DNA from: Candidatus Eiseniibacteriota bacterium | GTDB lineage: Bacteria; Orphanbacterota; Orphanbacteria; Orphanbacterales; Orphanbacteraceae | Assembly (NCBI GenBank): GCA_029262235.1 | Contig: JAJCZU010000004.1 | Coordinates: 1,179,231 to 1,243,230, forward strand | Direction of reading: 5' to 3' | Length of the DNA: 64,000 nt | Shown here: positions 5,224-21,155 of the stretch, piece after piece | Layout of the letters: the number at the start of each line of letters is the position of its first letter | How positions within the stretch are numbered: position 1 is the first letter of the stretch | Notes under the pieces: generated by a model | Seen by the model: only the letters and a program-made list of their open reading frames with translations | Database searches by the model: none | What the model was told of the DNA's origin: nothing | Position numbers and translations under genes: made by a program

Positions 5224-8178
5224 ATGGGGAACGATGATCGCGTCATTCGCGCTGAACACGACCTGCGCCGCGCCGAAGCGAGCGGAGACGACCTGAAGCA
5301 GGCCGAGCTCCGTGAAACGCTTGGCGACTGGTACATCGAGTCGGACAACTGCGAAGAAGCCCTCGTCAACCTGGACAAGCTGCGGCAGTCGCCGTTCTGG
5401 CAGAAATCCTTTCTGCCGGCCGACAAAGCCCGCGTGTGGTGCAAGGTCGCAAGCGCTCAGACGGGTTTGAATCAGTACACCGCAGCACTCCAGAGCCTCG
5501 AACGCGCCGAGCGTGAAGTCAAAGGGATCCCGAAGCATCCCATGCTCGGCAAAATCTATTCGCTCACCGGTCAGGCGCAGCGCAACCTCGGAAATCACCG
5601 GGAGGCGCTGCAGTATTCCCTTCAGGCGCTTTATGCGTTAAGAGACTCGCGCGAGAACGAAGAGATCGGGCGCGTCCAGCTCACGATCGGATCGCTGTTT
5701 CTGCGTCAGGGCGACTTCTCCCAGGCGCTCAGCTATTTTCATGATTCGCTCGCGACGTATCGCAGGATCGACGATCGACGCGGGATCGCCAAGGCGTACA
5801 ACAACCTCGGCGTCGCGTACAAAAACAATTGCCAGTGGGACAATGCGACGAGCTGCCTTCGCCAGGCGATGAACCTGGACGAGGGGAGCAACTACGGCGG
5901 CTTCGCGCTTCGCCTTCTCAATCTCTCTCTGATTCAGTACCGGCGGGGAGAGTGGAGGAGCGCGATCGAAGGGACGGACCGCGCGCTTCGCATGTACAGG
6001 AATATCGGCGACGACCTGGGGATCGCGCGCTGCAATCTCGCGCTCGCCCGCATCGCGCGCCATCGGCTGCAGTGGGACGAGGCGAAGTCGTACGCCGTGG
6101 AAGCGCTCGAACTCGCAACGAAGGGCGAGAGCCGGCGCGAAATCGCGGCCGCATTCGAAGAGCTGGGCGCGTGGCAGTTCGACCGCGGCAGCGAAAAGAA
6201 GGCGCGCGAGTTTTTCGAAAAGTCTCTCTCGGTTGCGAAGGAAATTTCCGAGCAGAGCGACCATGTCGCGGAAGTGCATCGCCGTCTCGCCGAATGTGCG
6301 ATCGCCGAAGGTGATCCGGAGCGCGGGATCGAATACGCGAAACACGGCCTTTCGGTTGCGATCGCGATTCGCGACAAGGTGGCCGTCGGAACCGCGCTCC
6401 GCGCGCTGTCGCGTGCCCATCGGGAAGCCGGCGATTCCGTTCGCGCCGTTCGCTTCGCAGGTCGAAGCGCCAAGTTCATGGAGCGCCTCGGTGTTCCGTT
6501 CGAACTCGGCCGCTCGCTGCTCGAACTCGCCACGGCCGCGCTGCTCATGAGCGACTACCGTGCCGCCCGCTCGAGCCTGACCCGCGCCGAAGCCATCTTC
6601 CGGCGCTTCCACACCGACACGCTCTCCTGTCGCGTATTGATCGAGTTCGCGCGACTCAAGATGCATTCGGACCGCCTCGAAGACGCCGTGGTCTGCCTGC
6701 AGAAGGCAGAAGGTTTTCTCGAAGAGGGCCGCATGACGATCGAGCGAGCGGAAGTCGATCACCTGCTCCGCGAAATCGAACATTCTTATGTAGAGGGCGC
6801 GCTGTCGCGCGAATCGAACCGGTTCCTGATCCGTGCCACCACCCGGCGTGCGAACGGTTCTTCGCTGCGTGAAATCGCCGAGTCGCTCGACGCCGACCGC
6901 GTCTTCGTTTTCGAGGGCGTGGCGGGCGAGTGGATGGTGCGCCAGACCTGGAAGATCGAAAGCGAAGAAGCCGCGCGGATTCTCGATCGACGCGAATGGA
7001 ACTGGGTGGACGGTCGCCCGGCACGTCCCATCGTGTCGCTCTCCCGCGAAGGGTCGATTTCGAGCCTCGCCGTTCCGATCAACTTCGAAGGTACCGCGGG
7101 CGTCTACGTCGAGCGCGCGATCGACTCGAGTCGCGGTCACTTCGATCGACGCGACTTGAACTTCGTTGTCGCGCTCGTGCGCGAGTGGGATCTCGGCGCC
7201 CGCAAAAGCGAAAAGTCGTCGTCCTCGGATCACTTCGGACGCATCATTACGAAGAACCCGAAGATGAGGGAGATCCTCGACACGCTCGAGAAGCTGCAGG
7301 GGATGCACCTGACGATCCTCCTGCAGGGAGAGACGGGGACGGGCAAGGGCCTGTTCGCATCGGAGATTTCGAAGGGAAACCCGGGGCCGTTCGTTACGAT
7401 CAACTGTGCCGACCTGTCCGAAAGCGTGCTCGAGAGCGAGCTGTTCGGCCATGTGAAGAGCGCGTTCACGGGCGCCACGGCGGGGAAGAAGGGGCTGTTC
7501 GAAACGGCGGACGGCGGCACGGTCTTTATCGACGAAATCGACAAGACGAGCCGCAAGTTCCAGGAGAAGCTGCTTCGCGTGGTCGATCGCCAGGAATTCA
7601 AACCGGTCGGATCGGTGCGCGTGAAGCGTGTCGACTGTCGCATCGTCTGCGCTTCGAACCGCAATCTGGGCGAGGCCGTGAAAGCGGGCGAGTTCCTTGC
7701 GGATCTTTATTATCGTCTGAAAGTCATTTCTCTTCTGATTCCGCCGCTTCGGGAGCGTCCCGAGGATATCCTGCTTCTCGCCGATCACTTCCTCCGGCGG
7801 TTCGCGGACCAGTTCGAAAAACCGGGAATTCATCTCGCCGAAGAATCGCTTGCCCTGCTCGCGCAGCACAACTGGCCCGGCAACGTGCGCGATCTGCAGA
7901 ACGAAATGGAGCGCGCCGTCGCGCTGGCGTCTCCTGACGAACGGATCGATCCCGAAGATCTCTCCGAAGAGCTGCTCGCGCGTGATACGGAAGCATCCGG
8001 TGCGGTGGAAATGGGAGAGCACACGCTCGCGGAAATGGTCGGCTCGCTCGAGAAGCGCATCATCGACCAGGTGCTGCGCGATTGTGACGGGAACAAGTCC
8101 AAAGCTTCCCGCGTGCTCGGCCTGACGCGCAAAGGGCTTCGCAACAAGATCCAGCGTTACGGAATCCAGGAGCCGTAG
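5224..8178 (+). CDS. TPR-GAF-like-AAA+-Fis regulator of the sigma-54 activator family
   Basis: A 984-residue cytoplasmic regulator with a GGGAGGGG ribosome site. Residues 1-~520 are TPR repeats (AYNNLGVAYKNNCQWDNATSC is typical). A GAF-like segment follows (~530-670). The AAA+ domain has Walker A GETGTGKG (702-709), the loop at 746-751 and Walker B GGTVFIDEID (~765-774). A Fis-type helix-turn-helix ends the protein (NKSKASRVLGLTRKGLRNKI). In bacterial enhancer-binding proteins the AAA+ ring remodels sigma-54 holoenzyme through a GAFTGA loop. Here the loop reads SAFTGA, so sigma-54 contact may be altered. TPRs in place of a receiver domain suggest control by a protein or peptide partner. Confidence 0.88.
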   Translation: MGNDDRVIRAEHDLRRAEASGDDLKQAELRETLGDWYIESDNCEEALVNLDKLRQSPFWQKSFLPADKARVWCKVASAQTGLNQYTAALQSLERAEREVKGIPKHPMLGKIYSLTGQAQRNLGNHREALQYSLQALYALRDSRENEEIGRVQLTIGSLFLRQGDFSQALSYFHDSLATYRRIDDRRGIAKAYNNLGVAYKNNCQWDNATSCLRQAMNLDEGSNYGGFALRLLNLSLIQYRRGEWRSAIEGTDRALRMYRNIGDDLGIARCNLALARIARHRLQWDEAKSYAVEALELATKGESRREIAAAFEELGAWQFDRGSEKKAREFFEKSLSVAKEISEQSDHVAEVHRRLAECAIAEGDPERGIEYAKHGLSVAIAIRDKVAVGTALRALSRAHREAGDSVRAVRFAGRSAKFMERLGVPFELGRSLLELATAALLMSDYRAARSSLTRAEAIFRRFHTDTLSCRVLIEFARLKMHSDRLEDAVVCLQKAEGFLEEGRMTIERAEVDHLLREIEHSYVEGALSRESNRFLIRATTRRANGSSLREIAESLDADRVFVFEGVAGEWMVRQTWKIESEEAARILDRREWNWVDGRPARPIVSLSREGSISSLAVPINFEGTAGVYVERAIDSSRGHFDRRDLNFVVALVREWDLGARKSEKSSSSDHFGRIITKNPKMREILDTLEKLQGMHLTILLQGETGTGKGLFASEISKGNPGPFVTINCADLSESVLESELFGHVKSAFTGATAGKKGLFETADGGTVFIDEIDKTSRKFQEKLLRVVDRQEFKPVGSVRVKRVDCRIVCASNRNLGEAVKAGEFLADLYYRLKVISLLIPPLRERPEDILLLADHFLRRFADQFEKPGIHLAEESLALLAQHNWPGNVRDLQNEMERAVALASPDERIDPEDLSEELLARDTEASGAVEMGEHTLAEMVGSLEKRIIDQVLRDCDGNKSKASRVLGLTRKGLRNKIQRYGIQEP

Positions 8179-8264: not shown

Positions 8265-9017
8265 ATGTCGATTCCCGATCCTCATCATGATGACATCGTA
8301 TTGCAGGGCGAAGATGCCGTTCGCCGGCAGCGCGCCGAAGTGCGCGGCATGTTCGACAAGGTCAGTCCCCGCTACGACCTGCTGAATCGCCTGCTCTCGA
8401 TCGGCATGGACGGCGGCTGGCGCCGGGCGGCGATCCGGGCTTCGGGACTCGCGGCGGGCGACTGCCTGCTCGACGTCGCGTGCGGAACCGGCGACATGAT
8501 GCGCGAAGCGACACGCCGCGTGCCGGGGTGTCGCGTGATCGGCGTCGACTTCGCGCGCGAGATGCTGCGTGCGGGCCGCGGGAAGTGGGATCCGTCGGCT
8601 CCGCTCGCGTTCATCCATGGCGACGCGGAGTCGTTGCCCGTTCGCGACGGCACGTGCGCGGCGGCAACCATGTCGTTCGGCATCCGGAACATCCCGCGCA
8701 GGGAAGCGGCGCTTTGCGCCATGGCGCGCGCCGTCAAGCCGGGGGGCCGCATCGCGATCCTCGAACTCAGTACGAAGAAGAACGGATTCCTCGCGTTCGC
8801 CGTGGGTATCTACGTACGCACGGTGCTCCCCCTGGTCGGGGGAGCGTTGTCGCGCGGGGAGGCCTACGGTTATCTTTCCGACTCGATGCACGCATTCCCC
8901 GATCCCGCACGCTTCTGCGAAGAGATGCGGAGCGCGGGGCTCGTCAATGTGAAAGCACGCAGGCTGTTTCTGAGTCCCGCATGGCTGTTCGTCGGGACCG
9001 TCGCCCCGGAGGTGTAG
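8265..9017 (+). CDS. menG: Demethylmenaquinone (UbiE/MenG) methyltransferase
   Basis: A 250-residue SAM-dependent methyltransferase that carries out the last C-methylation of menaquinone (or ubiquinone) synthesis. Family signatures are FDKVSPRYDLLNRLLSIGMD near residue 30, the SAM-binding LDVACGTGDMM, and SFGIRNIPRREAAL near residue 135. Length is normal. The start ATG 8265 has AGGAG 8 bases upstream. No other quinone gene is in the window, so the choice of menaquinone over ubiquinone is inferred from the general context. The downstream lipoprotein genes include a tetrahaem cytochrome that could draw on the quinone pool. Confidence 0.92.
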   Translation: MSIPDPHHDDIVLQGEDAVRRQRAEVRGMFDKVSPRYDLLNRLLSIGMDGGWRRAAIRASGLAAGDCLLDVACGTGDMMREATRRVPGCRVIGVDFAREMLRAGRGKWDPSAPLAFIHGDAESLPVRDGTCAAATMSFGIRNIPRREAALCAMARAVKPGGRIAILELSTKKNGFLAFAVGIYVRTVLPLVGGALSRGEAYGYLSDSMHAFPDPARFCEEMRSAGLVNVKARRLFLSPAWLFVGTVAPEV

Positions 9018-9045: not shown

Positions 9046-11013
9046 GTGGCGACGGCGCTATTCATTCTGACTTGCGGGGCGGGATGCGGAAAAGACGCAG
9101 GCCAGAGCGGGAACGAGGACCCGATTGCCGCGGAAAGACTGCGCCTGCAGTCGTGGGAGTACACACGCACTGACCCGGGCGACTCGATCCGCACGTACCT
9201 CGGGGATGAGCGCCCTGCCGTGCGCGCGCGGGCGGCGAAGACGCTCGGGCGCATGCAGAACACGGACCATACCGCCTTTCTCGTGCCTGTCCTGAATGAC
9301 ACGGACGCGACCGTGCGAGGCGCTGTCTGTTTCGCACTCGGACAGATCGGCGATGACCGTGCCGCTCCGTCCCTTGCCGCAAGGCTTCGCAGGGAAACCG
9401 ACCCGAAACTGCTGCGCGAAGGCTTGAAAGCCCTGGGCAAAATGGGTGGCCCCGCGGCGTCTGCGGGTTCGGCCGCCTACCTGAAGAACGAAGATCCTCT
9501 GACCCGCGCGGAAGCGTGCTACGCCCTCGGCCGAATGGAAGATTCGACCCAGACCGTACAGCTCGTTGCGCTGCTGACCGACGAATCCGACGAGGTGCGG
9601 GCGGCGGCCGCTTATGCGATCGAAAAATCGGGTCAGGAGGAGTTCGCCTCGGGGCTCGTGCCACTCTATCAGGACACGTCACCCGTGGTGCGGGAGTTCG
9701 CGATTCGCGCGGCGGGCAAGCTCGGCGATCGTTCCGCCGTGCTCGCGGGCTCGCATCTGCTGCATGACGAGAGCTGGCGGGTTCGCGTGAACAGCGCACG
9801 CGCCCTCGGTGAACTCGGCGGTCCGGATGCGGCGGGCGCGCTGATCGAAGCACTCACGATTCCCACGGATCACATGATCACGCGTGTCACGATCGTGCAT
9901 GCGCTCGGCGCTGCAGGAGACGAGGCGGCGCGTCCGGCTCTCACGCGGATTCTCGACGGCCCGGTCGGCCCGTTCACGCTTCCGGCGATCCGCGCGATTG
10001 CGAGCCTCCCCGGCGCCGACTCGATCGAACCCATTCGGAAGCACCGCGACGCGGAAGACGCGGCCATCCGTGAGGCCGCATGGGAGGAAGGCGCACGGAT
10101 TGCCGAGCGGGAAGAGTATGCGGCGCACCTCGCTGCGTTCTGGAGTACGGATGATCCGCGTGTCAGGAAAGGGATCGTGGCGGGACTCACAGGCCGTGAA
10201 CGCCCGCCGCTCGACTTTCTCGTGAGCGCACTCGACACGAAGGACGCGCCCACGCTGATCCTGGCCGCCGACGCGATCGGCACACACGGCGGCCCGGGTG
10301 AACGCGAGGCTTTACAACGTCTTTACTGGAGTCATCCGGGGGCGACGACCGAAGATGGAGAGGTACGACTCGTAGCGCTCACCGCCCTGATCGCACTCGG
10401 GGGCGATGACAGCGGCGAGTGGGAGGCGCAGGCCATCGAGCGGGACTCGCTGCTGCAGGCGGCTCTGCTGGACACGGACGAACGCGTGCGCCGCGAAGCC
10501 GCGGCGTTCTTTACGGACCACGATGTCGCGTTCGCCCGTTCGCCCGTTGCCGACACGCTGCTGGCGCCGGACTTCCTTGCCGGCATCGAGGGCGGTGTCG
10601 CCACGATCGAGACCGGGCGGGGCACGATCCGCGTGGAACTGTTCGCGGACGAAGCGCCGGTCACGGTGAGGAACTTCACGAAACTGGCACGCGAAGGATT
10701 TTACGACGGCCTCGTATTCCATCGCGTCGTCGCGAACTTCGTGATTCAGGCGGGGTGTCCGCGCGGCGACGGCTGGGGAGATCCGGGGTACTCGATTCGA
10801 TGCGAGTATAATCCGGTTCGTTTCGAGAGTTATGTGATGGGCATGGCGCTCTCGGGCAAAGACACGGGAGGGAGCCAGTGGTTCATCACGCAAACCCCGC
10901 AGCCGCATCTCGACGGGCGGTACACGGTTTTCGGCCGCGTGATCGACGGTTTCGACGTGGTCGATCAAACGCTGCAGGGGGATCCGATCATGGCCATCCG
11001 AGTAGAACCGTAG
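9046..11013 (+). CDS. HEAT-repeat lipoprotein fused to a cyclophilin peptidyl-prolyl isomerase
   Basis: About 655 residues. A lipoprotein signal ends at FILTCGAGC. Residues ~35-500 are HEAT/PBS-type helical repeats (VRAAAAYAIEKSG, WRVRVNSARALGELG). Residues ~505-655 form a cyclophilin domain with FHRVVANFVIQAG, SQWFITQTPQPHLDG and YTVFGRV; the Arg, Phe and Gln catalytic positions are present. The start is uncertain. GTG 9046 has no Shine-Dalgarno and gives a very short signal without positive charge. GGAGG at 9008-9012 sits at normal spacing from in-frame ATC 9019/ATT 9022, which would add basic residues (HSRHS). It lies 37 bases before the selenoprotein gene. A periplasmic folding or scaffold role is inferred. 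Confidence 0.85.
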   Translation: MATALFILTCGAGCGKDAGQSGNEDPIAAERLRLQSWEYTRTDPGDSIRTYLGDERPAVRARAAKTLGRMQNTDHTAFLVPVLNDTDATVRGAVCFALGQIGDDRAAPSLAARLRRETDPKLLREGLKALGKMGGPAASAGSAAYLKNEDPLTRAEACYALGRMEDSTQTVQLVALLTDESDEVRAAAAYAIEKSGQEEFASGLVPLYQDTSPVVREFAIRAAGKLGDRSAVLAGSHLLHDESWRVRVNSARALGELGGPDAAGALIEALTIPTDHMITRVTIVHALGAAGDEAARPALTRILDGPVGPFTLPAIRAIASLPGADSIEPIRKHRDAEDAAIREAAWEEGARIAEREEYAAHLAAFWSTDDPRVRKGIVAGLTGRERPPLDFLVSALDTKDAPTLILAADAIGTHGGPGEREALQRLYWSHPGATTEDGEVRLVALTALIALGGDDSGEWEAQAIERDSLLQAALLDTDERVRREAAAFFTDHDVAFARSPVADTLLAPDFLAGIEGGVATIETGRGTIRVELFADEAPVTVRNFTKLAREGFYDGLVFHRVVANFVIQAGCPRGDGWGDPGYSIRCEYNPVRFESYVMGMALSGKDTGGSQWFITQTPQPHLDGRYTVFGRVIDGFDVVDQTLQGDPIMAIRVEP

Positions 11014-11050
11014 TAAACTTGCAGCATCAGCCCCTGCAATCAGGAAACGA

Positions 11051-12496
11051 ATGACGATGCGAAAACACCTGAATATACTCGGCGCGCTCGGCGCGCTGCT
11101 CCTCTTCCTGACGGGAAGCGGATGCGTCGAGTCGGAGAGCACCGACCTGAGCCGCCTGCGAATCCTCTACTCGAGCGATCTGCTCGGGGAACTGGAGCCG
11201 TGTGGCTGAAAAGTCAGCCAGAAAGGCGGCGTGGCCCGGCGGGCCACCTACATCAATCGACTCGCGATGGCCGACCCCGCTCCCACGATTTCCGTGGATG
11301 CCGGTGACCTGATCGGCGGAACCGGCAACCTCTTCGAAGTGAAGGGGCGTTACCTGTTCGAGACGTACCGCAAGATCGGCGTGGATGCCATGGCGGTCGG
11401 GATTACGGATCTCGATCAGGGGCACGACTATCTGAAACGGTACGCCGCGAAATATGGTATTCCGCTCGTTTCCTGCAATCTGTACAACGCCGAAACGAAC
11501 GAACGCTTCGTCGACCCGTACGTGATCAAGCGCCTGGGCGGCAAGAAGTTTCTGGGTTTCGAATGGGGCGGAAAGACGGTCGGAATCTTCGGCGTATTCA
11601 TGCTGATCGATGACGTGAGTACGATGCTGCCGAAAAAGGGTGACGATCCGGCACTCATCATTCGCGACGCACGGATCTCCTCGCGCGAAGTCATCGAAGA
11701 GCTCAAACAGAAAACCGATTTCATCATCTGTCTCGCGAACACCGGCTGGACGAACGCGACGAATCTCGCACGCGGCGTGACAGGAATCGACGTGATGGTC
11801 GTAGGGAACGGCGCCAACATCAAACCGAAGCCGTTTCTCGTGAACGACATCGCGCTCGTCATGCCGGGGGATCTGGGCAAGCAGCTCGGCATTCTGGAAC
11901 TCACCATGGACGAGTCATTCCGCGTCAAGGAGCGGGAAGGGCGGACCCAGGCATTCGAAGAGAACTTCGCTGACGACCCGGTCGTGGCGGAAATCGTCGA
12001 CCGGTATCGCGTGGAGCTGAACGAGGTCGGTCGGACGTACATGCCCACGACGAGCGAACTCGACCGTATTCGTTTTGTCGGCGCGGAGGCATGCGCGGAA
12101 TGCCACCTCAGTGAATACGAGCAGTGGATGTCGACGCCGCACGCCGATGCGATCACGACGCTGATCGAGGCCGAACAGGCGTTCAATCCCGAGTGCGTGA
12201 AGTGCCATGTGACGGGCTACGGCAAGTTCAACGGGTTTCATTCCTATGAGAAGACATCGAACATGGTGAACGTGCAGTGCGAGGTGTGCCACGGCTCGGG
12301 CATCGATCACATCAACTATGTGCGTGGAGAGGGACTGTCGGATGCGATCCGTACGCGGCAGAAAGCGTTCACGCTTGCGGCGACGGAAGAGCGATGCGTG
12401 GCCTGTCACAATTCGGAGCACGACCAGGAGTTCTTCTTCGACGCCGACGTGAAGCTCGTGGACCACTCACGCATGTTCGACAAAGCAGCGCGCTAG
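11051..12496 (+). CDS. UshA-like tetrahaem c-type cytochrome lipoprotein with in-frame selenocysteine
   Basis: The gene reads ATG 11051 to TAG 12496 (481 residues) only if TGA at 11207-11209 is selenocysteine 53; the same frame is open on both sides. A ribosome site (AGGAAACGA) precedes the start. Residues 1-28 are a lipoprotein signal (FLTGSGC). Residues ~35-300 resemble the metallophosphatase/5'-nucleotidase (UshA) fold: LRILYSSDLLGELEPCG, then Sec, then GGVARRATYINRL and VDAGDLIGG. The DxH and GNH metal motifs are degenerate (SDLLG, GITDLDQG). Four haem-binding motifs follow: CAECH (348), CVKCH (382), CEVCH (410) and CVACH (449), as in cytochrome c554-like domains. Cys-Gly-Sec replaces the Cys-Gly-Cys I expect in relatives. 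A hairpin fitting bacterial SECIS rules follows the UGA. Likely an exported redox enzyme; substrate unknown. Confidence 0.87.
11207..11247 (+). promoter_or_regulatory. Selenocysteine UGA and bSECIS-like hairpin
   Basis: The UGA at 11207-11209 is followed by GTGGCCC (11231-11237), the loop GGC (11238-11240) and GGGCCAC (11241-11247): a perfect 7-bp stem with a G-starting triloop. The loop begins 31 bases after the U of UGA. Known bacterial SECIS elements have the loop within about 16-37 bases and a G among the first loop positions, so this fits. The element lies inside the coding sequence, as expected in bacteria. Confidence 0.75.
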
Positions 12497-19394: not shown

Positions 19395-19424
19395 TTGACA
19401 CAACGGAGAAACCCCTGGAATAGT
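19395..19424 (+). promoter_or_regulatory. Promoter placing transcription start at the ATG
   Basis: TTGACA at 19395-19400, an 18-bp spacer and AATAGT at 19419-19424 preceded by TG-G (extended -10). The ATG at 19431 begins 7 bases after the -10 hexamer, so the mRNA would have no leader. No Shine-Dalgarno sequence is visible before the ATG. Confidence 0.5.
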
Positions 19425-19430
19425 GGAAAC

Positions 19431-21155
19431 ATGATGAAACGAATCTTACCGGCAACAGCGCTGCTCTTCGCACTCTTCGGCCCCGCGCGGGCGGAGGAGT
19501 TCTTCCCGCTCGATGATGTCCACAGGGGCATGATCGGCTATGCGCTGACCGTGATCGAAGGGACGCGTATCGACACGATGACGGTCGAAGTGATCGACGT
19601 CATCCGCGCGCGCAGCAGTTCCGGCAGCAGCATTCTCGTCGAAGTGCGCGGTCTCGGCACCGACATCTCCGGGATCGCAGGCGGCATGAGCGGCTCGCCC
19701 GTGTACCTCGAAGGTAAACTGGCCGGTGCACTGGCGTTCACGTACTCGGGCGCGCGGATCGCGATCGGCGGTGTTACCCCGATCGGGGAAATGGTCGAAG
19801 TGCTCGAACGCCGCGACAAAGAAGTCGCGAACCACACGCTGCAGGGACGTCCTGCATCGGGAAGCACCGGGCGCCCGGACCGCATTGCGACGCCGATCGC
19901 GATCAGCGGTTTCGCGGGGCCGGTTTCCGACGACATCGATCGCTTCTTCGCGGACCTGGGCATGGTGACGACGCTCGGTGGCGCGGGAGGGGGCGACTCG
20001 AAGGCGAAAGGCTGGGAGATGCGTCCCGGCGCGGCGGTCGGTGTGCGGCTATTGTCGGGAGACGCGAATCTCACGGCGATCGGTACCGTGACCTGGGTCG
20101 ACGGCGACCGGATGGTCGCATTCGGACATCCCCTCTTCCAATCGGGGAACGCGGTGTTCCCGCTCGTGTCGGCCGAGATTCACGCGGTCATGCCGAGCCG
20201 CGGCCTGTCGTTCAAAATCGGCTCGCCGATCGAGACCGTAGGCGCGATGACGCAGGACAGACGCACCGCGATCGCGGGCGAACTCGGCATGACCGCGCCC
20301 ACGATTCCGATTCGCGTCGGCGTTACGGTGCCGGGCATTCGCAAAGATGAGTTTACCTATGAAGCGATCGATCATCGCGCGCTTACGGCTGCGCTGGCGG
20401 CGTGGGCGACGACGAATTCGATCATGCACAACGAGAAAAGCTGGGGCGACGGGACCGCGCGTGTCAAGACGCGCATCGCGCTTCACGGCACCGACCAGGT
20501 CCTCGAGACCGACAACGTGTACACAGCGTCTACATTCATACGCGCGGCGGCGGCCGATGTCGCGCTTCCGATTCAGGTCTTCGCGAACACGAGCATCGAA
20601 GACGTGGCCGTGAAGAGTATCGATGTCGAGGTGGAAGTGCGCGACGGCCGCGACCTCGTGCGCATCGAGGAAGTGCTCGTCGAGAAGGGCTCGTACCGCC
20701 CGGGTCAGGAAGTGAAGGGCAAGGTTCTCGTGCGGCGATACCAGGGGGGCGTGACGGAACACCCGTTCTCGCTTCCGGTGCCCGCGGATCAGCCGGCGGG
20801 GGAACTGATTCTTCGCGTCTGCGACGCGGAGGGTTCGGAGGACTTCGACGACAAGCGCGCGCCGAACCGCACGCGCGTCACGACCCTGGACGGCTTGATT
20901 TCGCTTCTGAAAGATCGCCGCGGGAACGACCGCGTGTACTGCACGCTCTACGACCGTTCGATCGGGGCGACGATCGAGGGGCGCGCATTCCCGAATCTTC
21001 CCGCATCCGTACTTTCGATTTATGCCGAGCCCCGTCATGCCGATGACGCGGCCTACCGAACCGGCCGCGTGATCGCTGCGACCGACCTGCCGTTTTCCGG
21101 AGTCGTATCCGGCTGCTGGTCGCTCCCCGTGAACATCGACCCGAACGCGCCCTGA
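19431..21155 (+). CDS. SpoIVB-type S55 peptidase domain protein, exported
   Basis: A 574-residue protein with a signal peptide (MMKRILPATALLFALFGPAR). The mature start EEFFPLDDVHRGMIGYALTV is the hallmark of S55-domain proteins. The putative nucleophile lies in GIAGGMSGSPVYLEGKLAGA (Ser89). Further family motifs are MRPGAAVGVRLLSGDANLTA and MVAFGHPLFQSG. The C-terminal third is a beta-rich region of unknown role. SpoIVB of Bacillus cleaves an anti-sigma-pathway partner; this bacterium shows no sporulation genes, so the substrate is open. The gene overlaps the following start by one base (TGATG), although the preferred start of that gene is further in. Confidence 0.88.
   Translation: MMKRILPATALLFALFGPARAEEFFPLDDVHRGMIGYALTVIEGTRIDTMTVEVIDVIRARSSSGSSILVEVRGLGTDISGIAGGMSGSPVYLEGKLAGALAFTYSGARIAIGGVTPIGEMVEVLERRDKEVANHTLQGRPASGSTGRPDRIATPIAISGFAGPVSDDIDRFFADLGMVTTLGGAGGGDSKAKGWEMRPGAAVGVRLLSGDANLTAIGTVTWVDGDRMVAFGHPLFQSGNAVFPLVSAEIHAVMPSRGLSFKIGSPIETVGAMTQDRRTAIAGELGMTAPTIPIRVGVTVPGIRKDEFTYEAIDHRALTAALAAWATTNSIMHNEKSWGDGTARVKTRIALHGTDQVLETDNVYTASTFIRAAAADVALPIQVFANTSIEDVAVKSIDVEVEVRDGRDLVRIEEVLVEKGSYRPGQEVKGKVLVRRYQGGVTEHPFSLPVPADQPAGELILRVCDAEGSEDFDDKRAPNRTRVTTLDGLISLLKDRRGNDRVYCTLYDRSIGATIEGRAFPNLPASVLSIYAEPRHADDAAYRTGRVIAATDLPFSGVVSGCWSLPVNIDPNAP

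Follow-up and report, generated by a model that had tools for sequence, protein, structure and literature searches.

A UshA-like tetrahaem selenoprotein from Candidatus Eiseniibacteriota with a putative single-chalcogen redox site

Comparative analysis showed that a gene within a 64,000-nucleotide stretch of a Candidatus Eiseniibacteriota genome (contig JAJCZU010000004.1; the whole stretch is referred to as the window) encodes a genuine selenoprotein, as judged by a Cys/Sec alignment, a bSECIS-type hairpin and a full set of selenocysteine (Sec) machinery. It is a well-supported addition to a catalogued, uncharacterised bacterial selenoprotein family. On balance we lean towards explaining the whole protein as a periplasmic oxidoreductase that works with a single chalcogen and is wired to a cytochrome c554-type tetrahaem domain. 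The locus is laid out as follows.

8265-9017, plus strand: MenG/UbiE methyltransferase, upstream neighbour in 7/7 phylum genomes
9046-11013, plus strand: HEAT-repeat and cyclophilin lipoprotein, which in 3/7 genomes separates MenG from the selenoprotein gene
11042-11045, plus strand: Shine-Dalgarno-like AGGA in the sequence, 5 nt 5' of ATG 11051
11051-12496, plus strand: coding sequence (481 aa, a single UGA) for the UshA-like tetrahaem selenoprotein, matching NCBIfam NF041198
11051-11125, plus strand: lipoprotein-type signal peptide, to Cys25, predicted from the sequence
11153-12040, plus strand: metallophosphoesterase (5'-nucleotidase)-like domain, metal and catalytic motifs lost
11201-11209, plus strand: Cys-Gly-Sec codons TGT GGC TGA, residues 51-53
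11231-11247, plus strand: bSECIS-type hairpin GUGGCCC-GGC-GGGCCAC, 7 bp, loop 28 nt after the UGA
12074-12460, plus strand: cytochrome c554-type tetrahaem domain (Pfam PF13435 plus flanks)
12092-12106, plus strand: CxxCH 1, CAECH, residue 348, invariant in alignment A2
12194-12208, plus strand: CxxCH 2, CVKCH, residue 382, invariant in alignment A2
12278-12292, plus strand: CxxCH 3, CEVCH, residue 410, invariant in alignment A2
12395-12409, plus strand: CxxCH 4, CVACH, residue 449, invariant in alignment A2

The frame runs from ATG 11051 to the stop codon TAG at 12494-12496, and its sole in-frame TGA (11207-11209) falls on residue 53, in the context LEPCG-U-KVSQKGGVARRATYINRL. An orthologue was found in all seven genomes of the phylum, with TGA at the identical codon in each; the six relatives of the window protein are 49-94% identical to it. 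Since six other genomes, one of them an independent genome from the same genus, share this codon, the TGA at 11207 is not a sequencing error. Across 36 full-length relatives from several phyla, a set chosen partly by the Cys/Sec motif, position 53 was occupied by Sec in 19 and by Cys in 17, and by nothing else. The seven orthologues were collected by whole-protein similarity and so give the stronger form of the argument. On the tree, the most likely number of changes between Sec and Cys is five, with at least three forced by well-supported branches.

The same assembly carries selA (1e-161), selB (1e-110), two selD genes, and selC, the last detected as a tRNA-Sec at 70.7 bits with ARAGORN concurring. 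One of the two SelD proteins (L018, G000:C3:455857-456780) itself contains a UGA, within the motif TCGU (LSRTCGU-AAKLSP); the second (L019) has Cys at the Sec site (AGCGSK). An earlier sequence-only reading of this DNA had called the gene a selenoprotein with an internal TGA at 11207, and had proposed looking for selA, selB, selC and selD in the genome and for homologues that have Cys where the UGA stands; both searches came out in its favour. Mechanical calling of open reading frames begins at 11231, as it would if the TGA truly ended translation or arose from a sequencing error, leaving the gene broken or with its start downstream at GTG 11231. Such a reading is hardly credible given the identical TGA codon in seven genomes, Cys elsewhere, a conserved hairpin and the complete Sec machinery.

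The hairpin at SECIS distance, also picked out by the sequence-only reading, falls within every limit of the published bSECIS model, which allows a loop of 3-9 nt with G in the first two positions, a stem of 4-16 bp, a spacing of 16-37 nt and a minimum free energy of at most -7.5 (PMC13188914). Its loop is GGC, its stem 7 bp, its spacing 28 nt and its computed energy -12.2 kcal/mol. Taken as a single gene this is unexceptional, since ARRA codons predispose to pairing, and 482 of 5000 synonymous recodings of the window gene gave an equally good hairpin. The SECIS claim therefore rests on the family comparison. A hairpin lies at exactly 28 nt in 20 Sec genes; among the 17 distinct Sec sequences the outer pair is swapped between G-C and C-G, one further exchange replaces G-C by A-U, and 99.2% of cells in the alignment are paired. 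The covariation score was 0.300 against 0.164 in shuffled alignments (0/500). When we looked for this hairpin in the Cys forms it was absent. In the G010 phylum, the Sec forms (L113-L116, L124, L126) have a weaker and different hairpin. A second candidate, a hairpin enclosing the UGA (11202-11220, UGGCUGA/UCAGCCA), is stable in the window, but we rejected it because its pairing, judged by eye, is not kept in most relatives. Rfam gave no match, either over the whole window or around the UGA.

At its N terminus the protein carries a lipoprotein signal, in line with the export proposed earlier. The +1 Cys (C25) is common to all orthologues; the lipobox of the window protein is weak (GSGC), and those of the orthologues L031 (LTGC) and L034 (LSGC) are canonical.

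The existing family name 'UshA-like (seleno)protein', given in the sequence-only reading, was correct. NCBIfam NF041198 of that name (UshA_like_PCGU) matched at 289.3 bits, only a small margin above its cut-off of 275, and at 281.6 bits in a six-frame search. The nucleotidase-like and haem halves of this 519-position model both match the window protein (model positions 356-518, the haem part, at C4:1191181-1191669), and the family motif, PCG followed by Sec or Cys, is present as EPCGU at residues 49-53. The combination that had been called unusual is the standard architecture of NF041198. The relatives compared from outside the genus are 23-58% identical to the window protein. NF049981, UshA-like (seleno)protein family 2, is likewise UshA-like and Sec-containing, but a review gives its motif as CxxU and the window protein scores 40.1 bits against its cut-off of 140. 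UshA-like selenoproteins of COG0737 with the motif CxU were described in the Global Ocean Sampling survey in 2008 (PMC2398784) and are also listed in PMC9312934 and PMC13188914; the passages of these three sources that treat the family give it no function. The window protein belongs to the same family and shares the CxU motif, whereas the haem domain and the loss of the first Cys go unmentioned in those passages. We found no biochemical data on any family member in the literature. No relatives were found on viral contigs; on plasmids, the 20 best matches listed were nucleotidase-like, partial and less than 30% identical.

The AF2 model of the window protein (pLDDT 84.8, pTM 0.81) had its best PDB fold matches among 5'-nucleotidases, over about 320 aligned columns. 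The likeness to 5'-nucleotidase/UshA/CD73 and to SoxB is one of fold and of distant profile similarity; SoxB is the best-scoring characterised relative, and its profile TIGR04486 gave 66.7 bits against a cut-off of 550. Unlike these enzymes, the window protein has lost the catalytic and metal motifs and has its C-terminal domain replaced. At the nucleotidase motif sites it reads DLL and GITD, and DxH and the Asn-His of GNH(D/E) are gone in 36/36 family members, which bears out the earlier description of a UshA-like fold with degraded metal motifs. True nucleotidases in the same or related genomes retain ND-x-H and GNH(D/E). The part that stands in for the lost C-terminal domain matches Pfam Cytochrome_C554 and cytochrome c554 in the PDB. 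With its four CxxCH sites, which confirm the four c-type haem sites first read from the sequence, the protein qualifies as a c-type multihaem cytochrome, and no further multihaem frame besides 11051-12496 lies within the window. The C-terminal domain resembles tetrahaem cytochrome c554 (1bvb; PF13435) but differs from it in being fused to a nucleotidase-like domain and in its partners. By the domain limits, it stands in place of the nucleotidase C-terminal substrate-binding domain, and the haems would thereby face the old active-site cleft.

Because DxH and Asn-His are lost in 36/36, phosphoester hydrolysis is very unlikely. A phosphoesterase or nucleotidase that persists with an altered metal site could draw on the fold and profile similarity to 5'-nucleotidases and on the near-invariance of D83. 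We nevertheless regard it as very improbable: not only are DxH and GNH(D/E) missing throughout, but haems replace the nucleotidase C-terminal domain and the use of Sec implies redox chemistry.

Beyond the four CxxCH motifs, the invariant residues are P50, G52, Sec/Cys53, G59, G60, G85, H364, G395, E411 and H420. The first Cys of Cys-Gly-Sec is not among them: it is Val in L034 (PVGU; L034:1471-2892) and Thr in L069 and L071 (PTGU; L069:2337-3656 and L071:4910-6244), and in all three Sec is kept. The sequence-only reading had proposed a redox enzyme built around a selenol/thiol pair, and this part of it is weakened, as position 53 is invariantly Sec or Cys and its partner can be replaced. An obligatory selenenylsulphide pair is therefore not supported, and a single chalcogen suffices. 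Some PCG(U/C) homologues (L044, L046, L073 and L077) lack fused haems, which counts against a strict need for coupling in cis in the reading that we favour. Two of these, L044 and L046, represent a short third form in two further genomes of the phylum, with Sec present and no CxxCH at all.

In the explanation that we lean towards, Sec53 (Cys in relatives) would sit in a loop beside the former metal site and would serve as the catalytic atom in an oxidoreductase of the periplasm, attacking a sulphur- or oxygen-containing group on a substrate or an envelope protein. Electrons would pass directly between Sec53 and the haems, which in turn may exchange them with periplasmic cytochromes or the quinone pool. 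Given that the adjacent Cys is dispensable, the selenium would be reset by the haems and not by a resolving thiol. Two candidate roles are sulphur chemistry, suggested by SoxB being the best-scoring characterised relative, and the repair or thiol control of envelope proteins.

The same residues can be read in another way, with Sec/Cys53 ligating either a haem iron or a metal ion that is still present, and so tuning that centre rather than reacting with the substrate itself, like Cys in SoxAX- or TsdA-type haems. Besides the proximal haem His, just H364 and H420 are invariant for four haems, no further potential ligand except residue 53 is invariant, and the first Cys is dispensable, all of which would suit such a role. 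However, haem-free PCG(U/C) homologues exist, the variable and poorly modelled region 417-441 may supply further His ligands, and Sec is not known to be a common haem ligand. We consider this role unlikely, though worth keeping in view.

The host genome encodes a second family member with a UGA, about 30% identical to the first (L038; G000:C2:546727). The group to which this paralogue belongs lies directly downstream of LptD at nine loci (L084 (G000:C2, ~546727-548106), L085, L086, L089, L061-L063, L069 and L071), LptD being identified by Pfam for one of the cluster and by BLAST clustering for the others; in some, an HU-like gene lies between. Upstream of the gene in the G010 phylum there are mostly Pal (OmpA domain), a DUF4398 protein and a CpoB/YfiO-like TPR protein, and downstream TsaD and RsmA. 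The cell envelope is the common thread of these neighbourhoods, a pattern that housekeeping gene order may explain.

These contexts speak for a thiol/selenol oxidoreductase of envelope biogenesis that acts on LptD, Tol-Pal or similar envelope proteins: the host-genome paralogue group just after LptD, the G010-phylum relatives after Pal and the TPR protein, and the window copy preceded by MenG and the cyclophilin lipoprotein. Yet the same gene runs include TsaD, RsmA, SmpB, HU and a FolC-like gene and may reflect a static housekeeping order, so we think such a function improbable. We likewise rejected the neighbourhood as proof of any function, as there are three differing conserved contexts, all partly housekeeping. 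This also counts against the tetrahaem-wired oxidoreductase that we favour, whose conserved neighbours (MenG, LptD, Pal/CpoB, TsaD and RsmA) are mostly housekeeping and may be little informative. The earlier suggestion that the quinone pool feeds the protein derives from its adjacency to MenG; the adjacency itself held in every phylum genome, and the feeding is a conjecture drawn from it. That the HEAT/cyclophilin lipoprotein is a folding partner is doubtful, given how few of the genomes place it next to the gene.

New in this analysis are the loss of the DxH and GNH(D/E) motifs in all 36 members, the dispensability of the first Cys of Cys-Gly-Sec, and the finding that the neighbours (MenG, LptD, Pal/CpoB) belong to the envelope or to quinone metabolism. 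For a family on record since 2008, the comparison narrows the question to a non-phosphoesterase with one invariant chalcogen (Sec/Cys53) and a dispensable first Cys, and the four invariant haem sites and two invariant extra His narrow it further. Narrowed to the level of residues, the question of function therefore becomes open to direct tests. A tentative possibility is that the family represents a new enzyme type, in which a metal-free metallophosphoesterase fold would hold a single Sec/Cys with no obligatory resolving thiol, either wired directly to a covalent tetrahaem chain or ligating one of the haems, for periplasmic redox chemistry.

Elsewhere in the window, we noted that the protein encoded at 19395-21155 contains a SpoIVB peptidase S55 domain. 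In front of MenG, at 5224-8178, lies a large sigma-54 activator with TPR repeats, which several relatives (L078, L079, L080 and L083) keep close to the locus.
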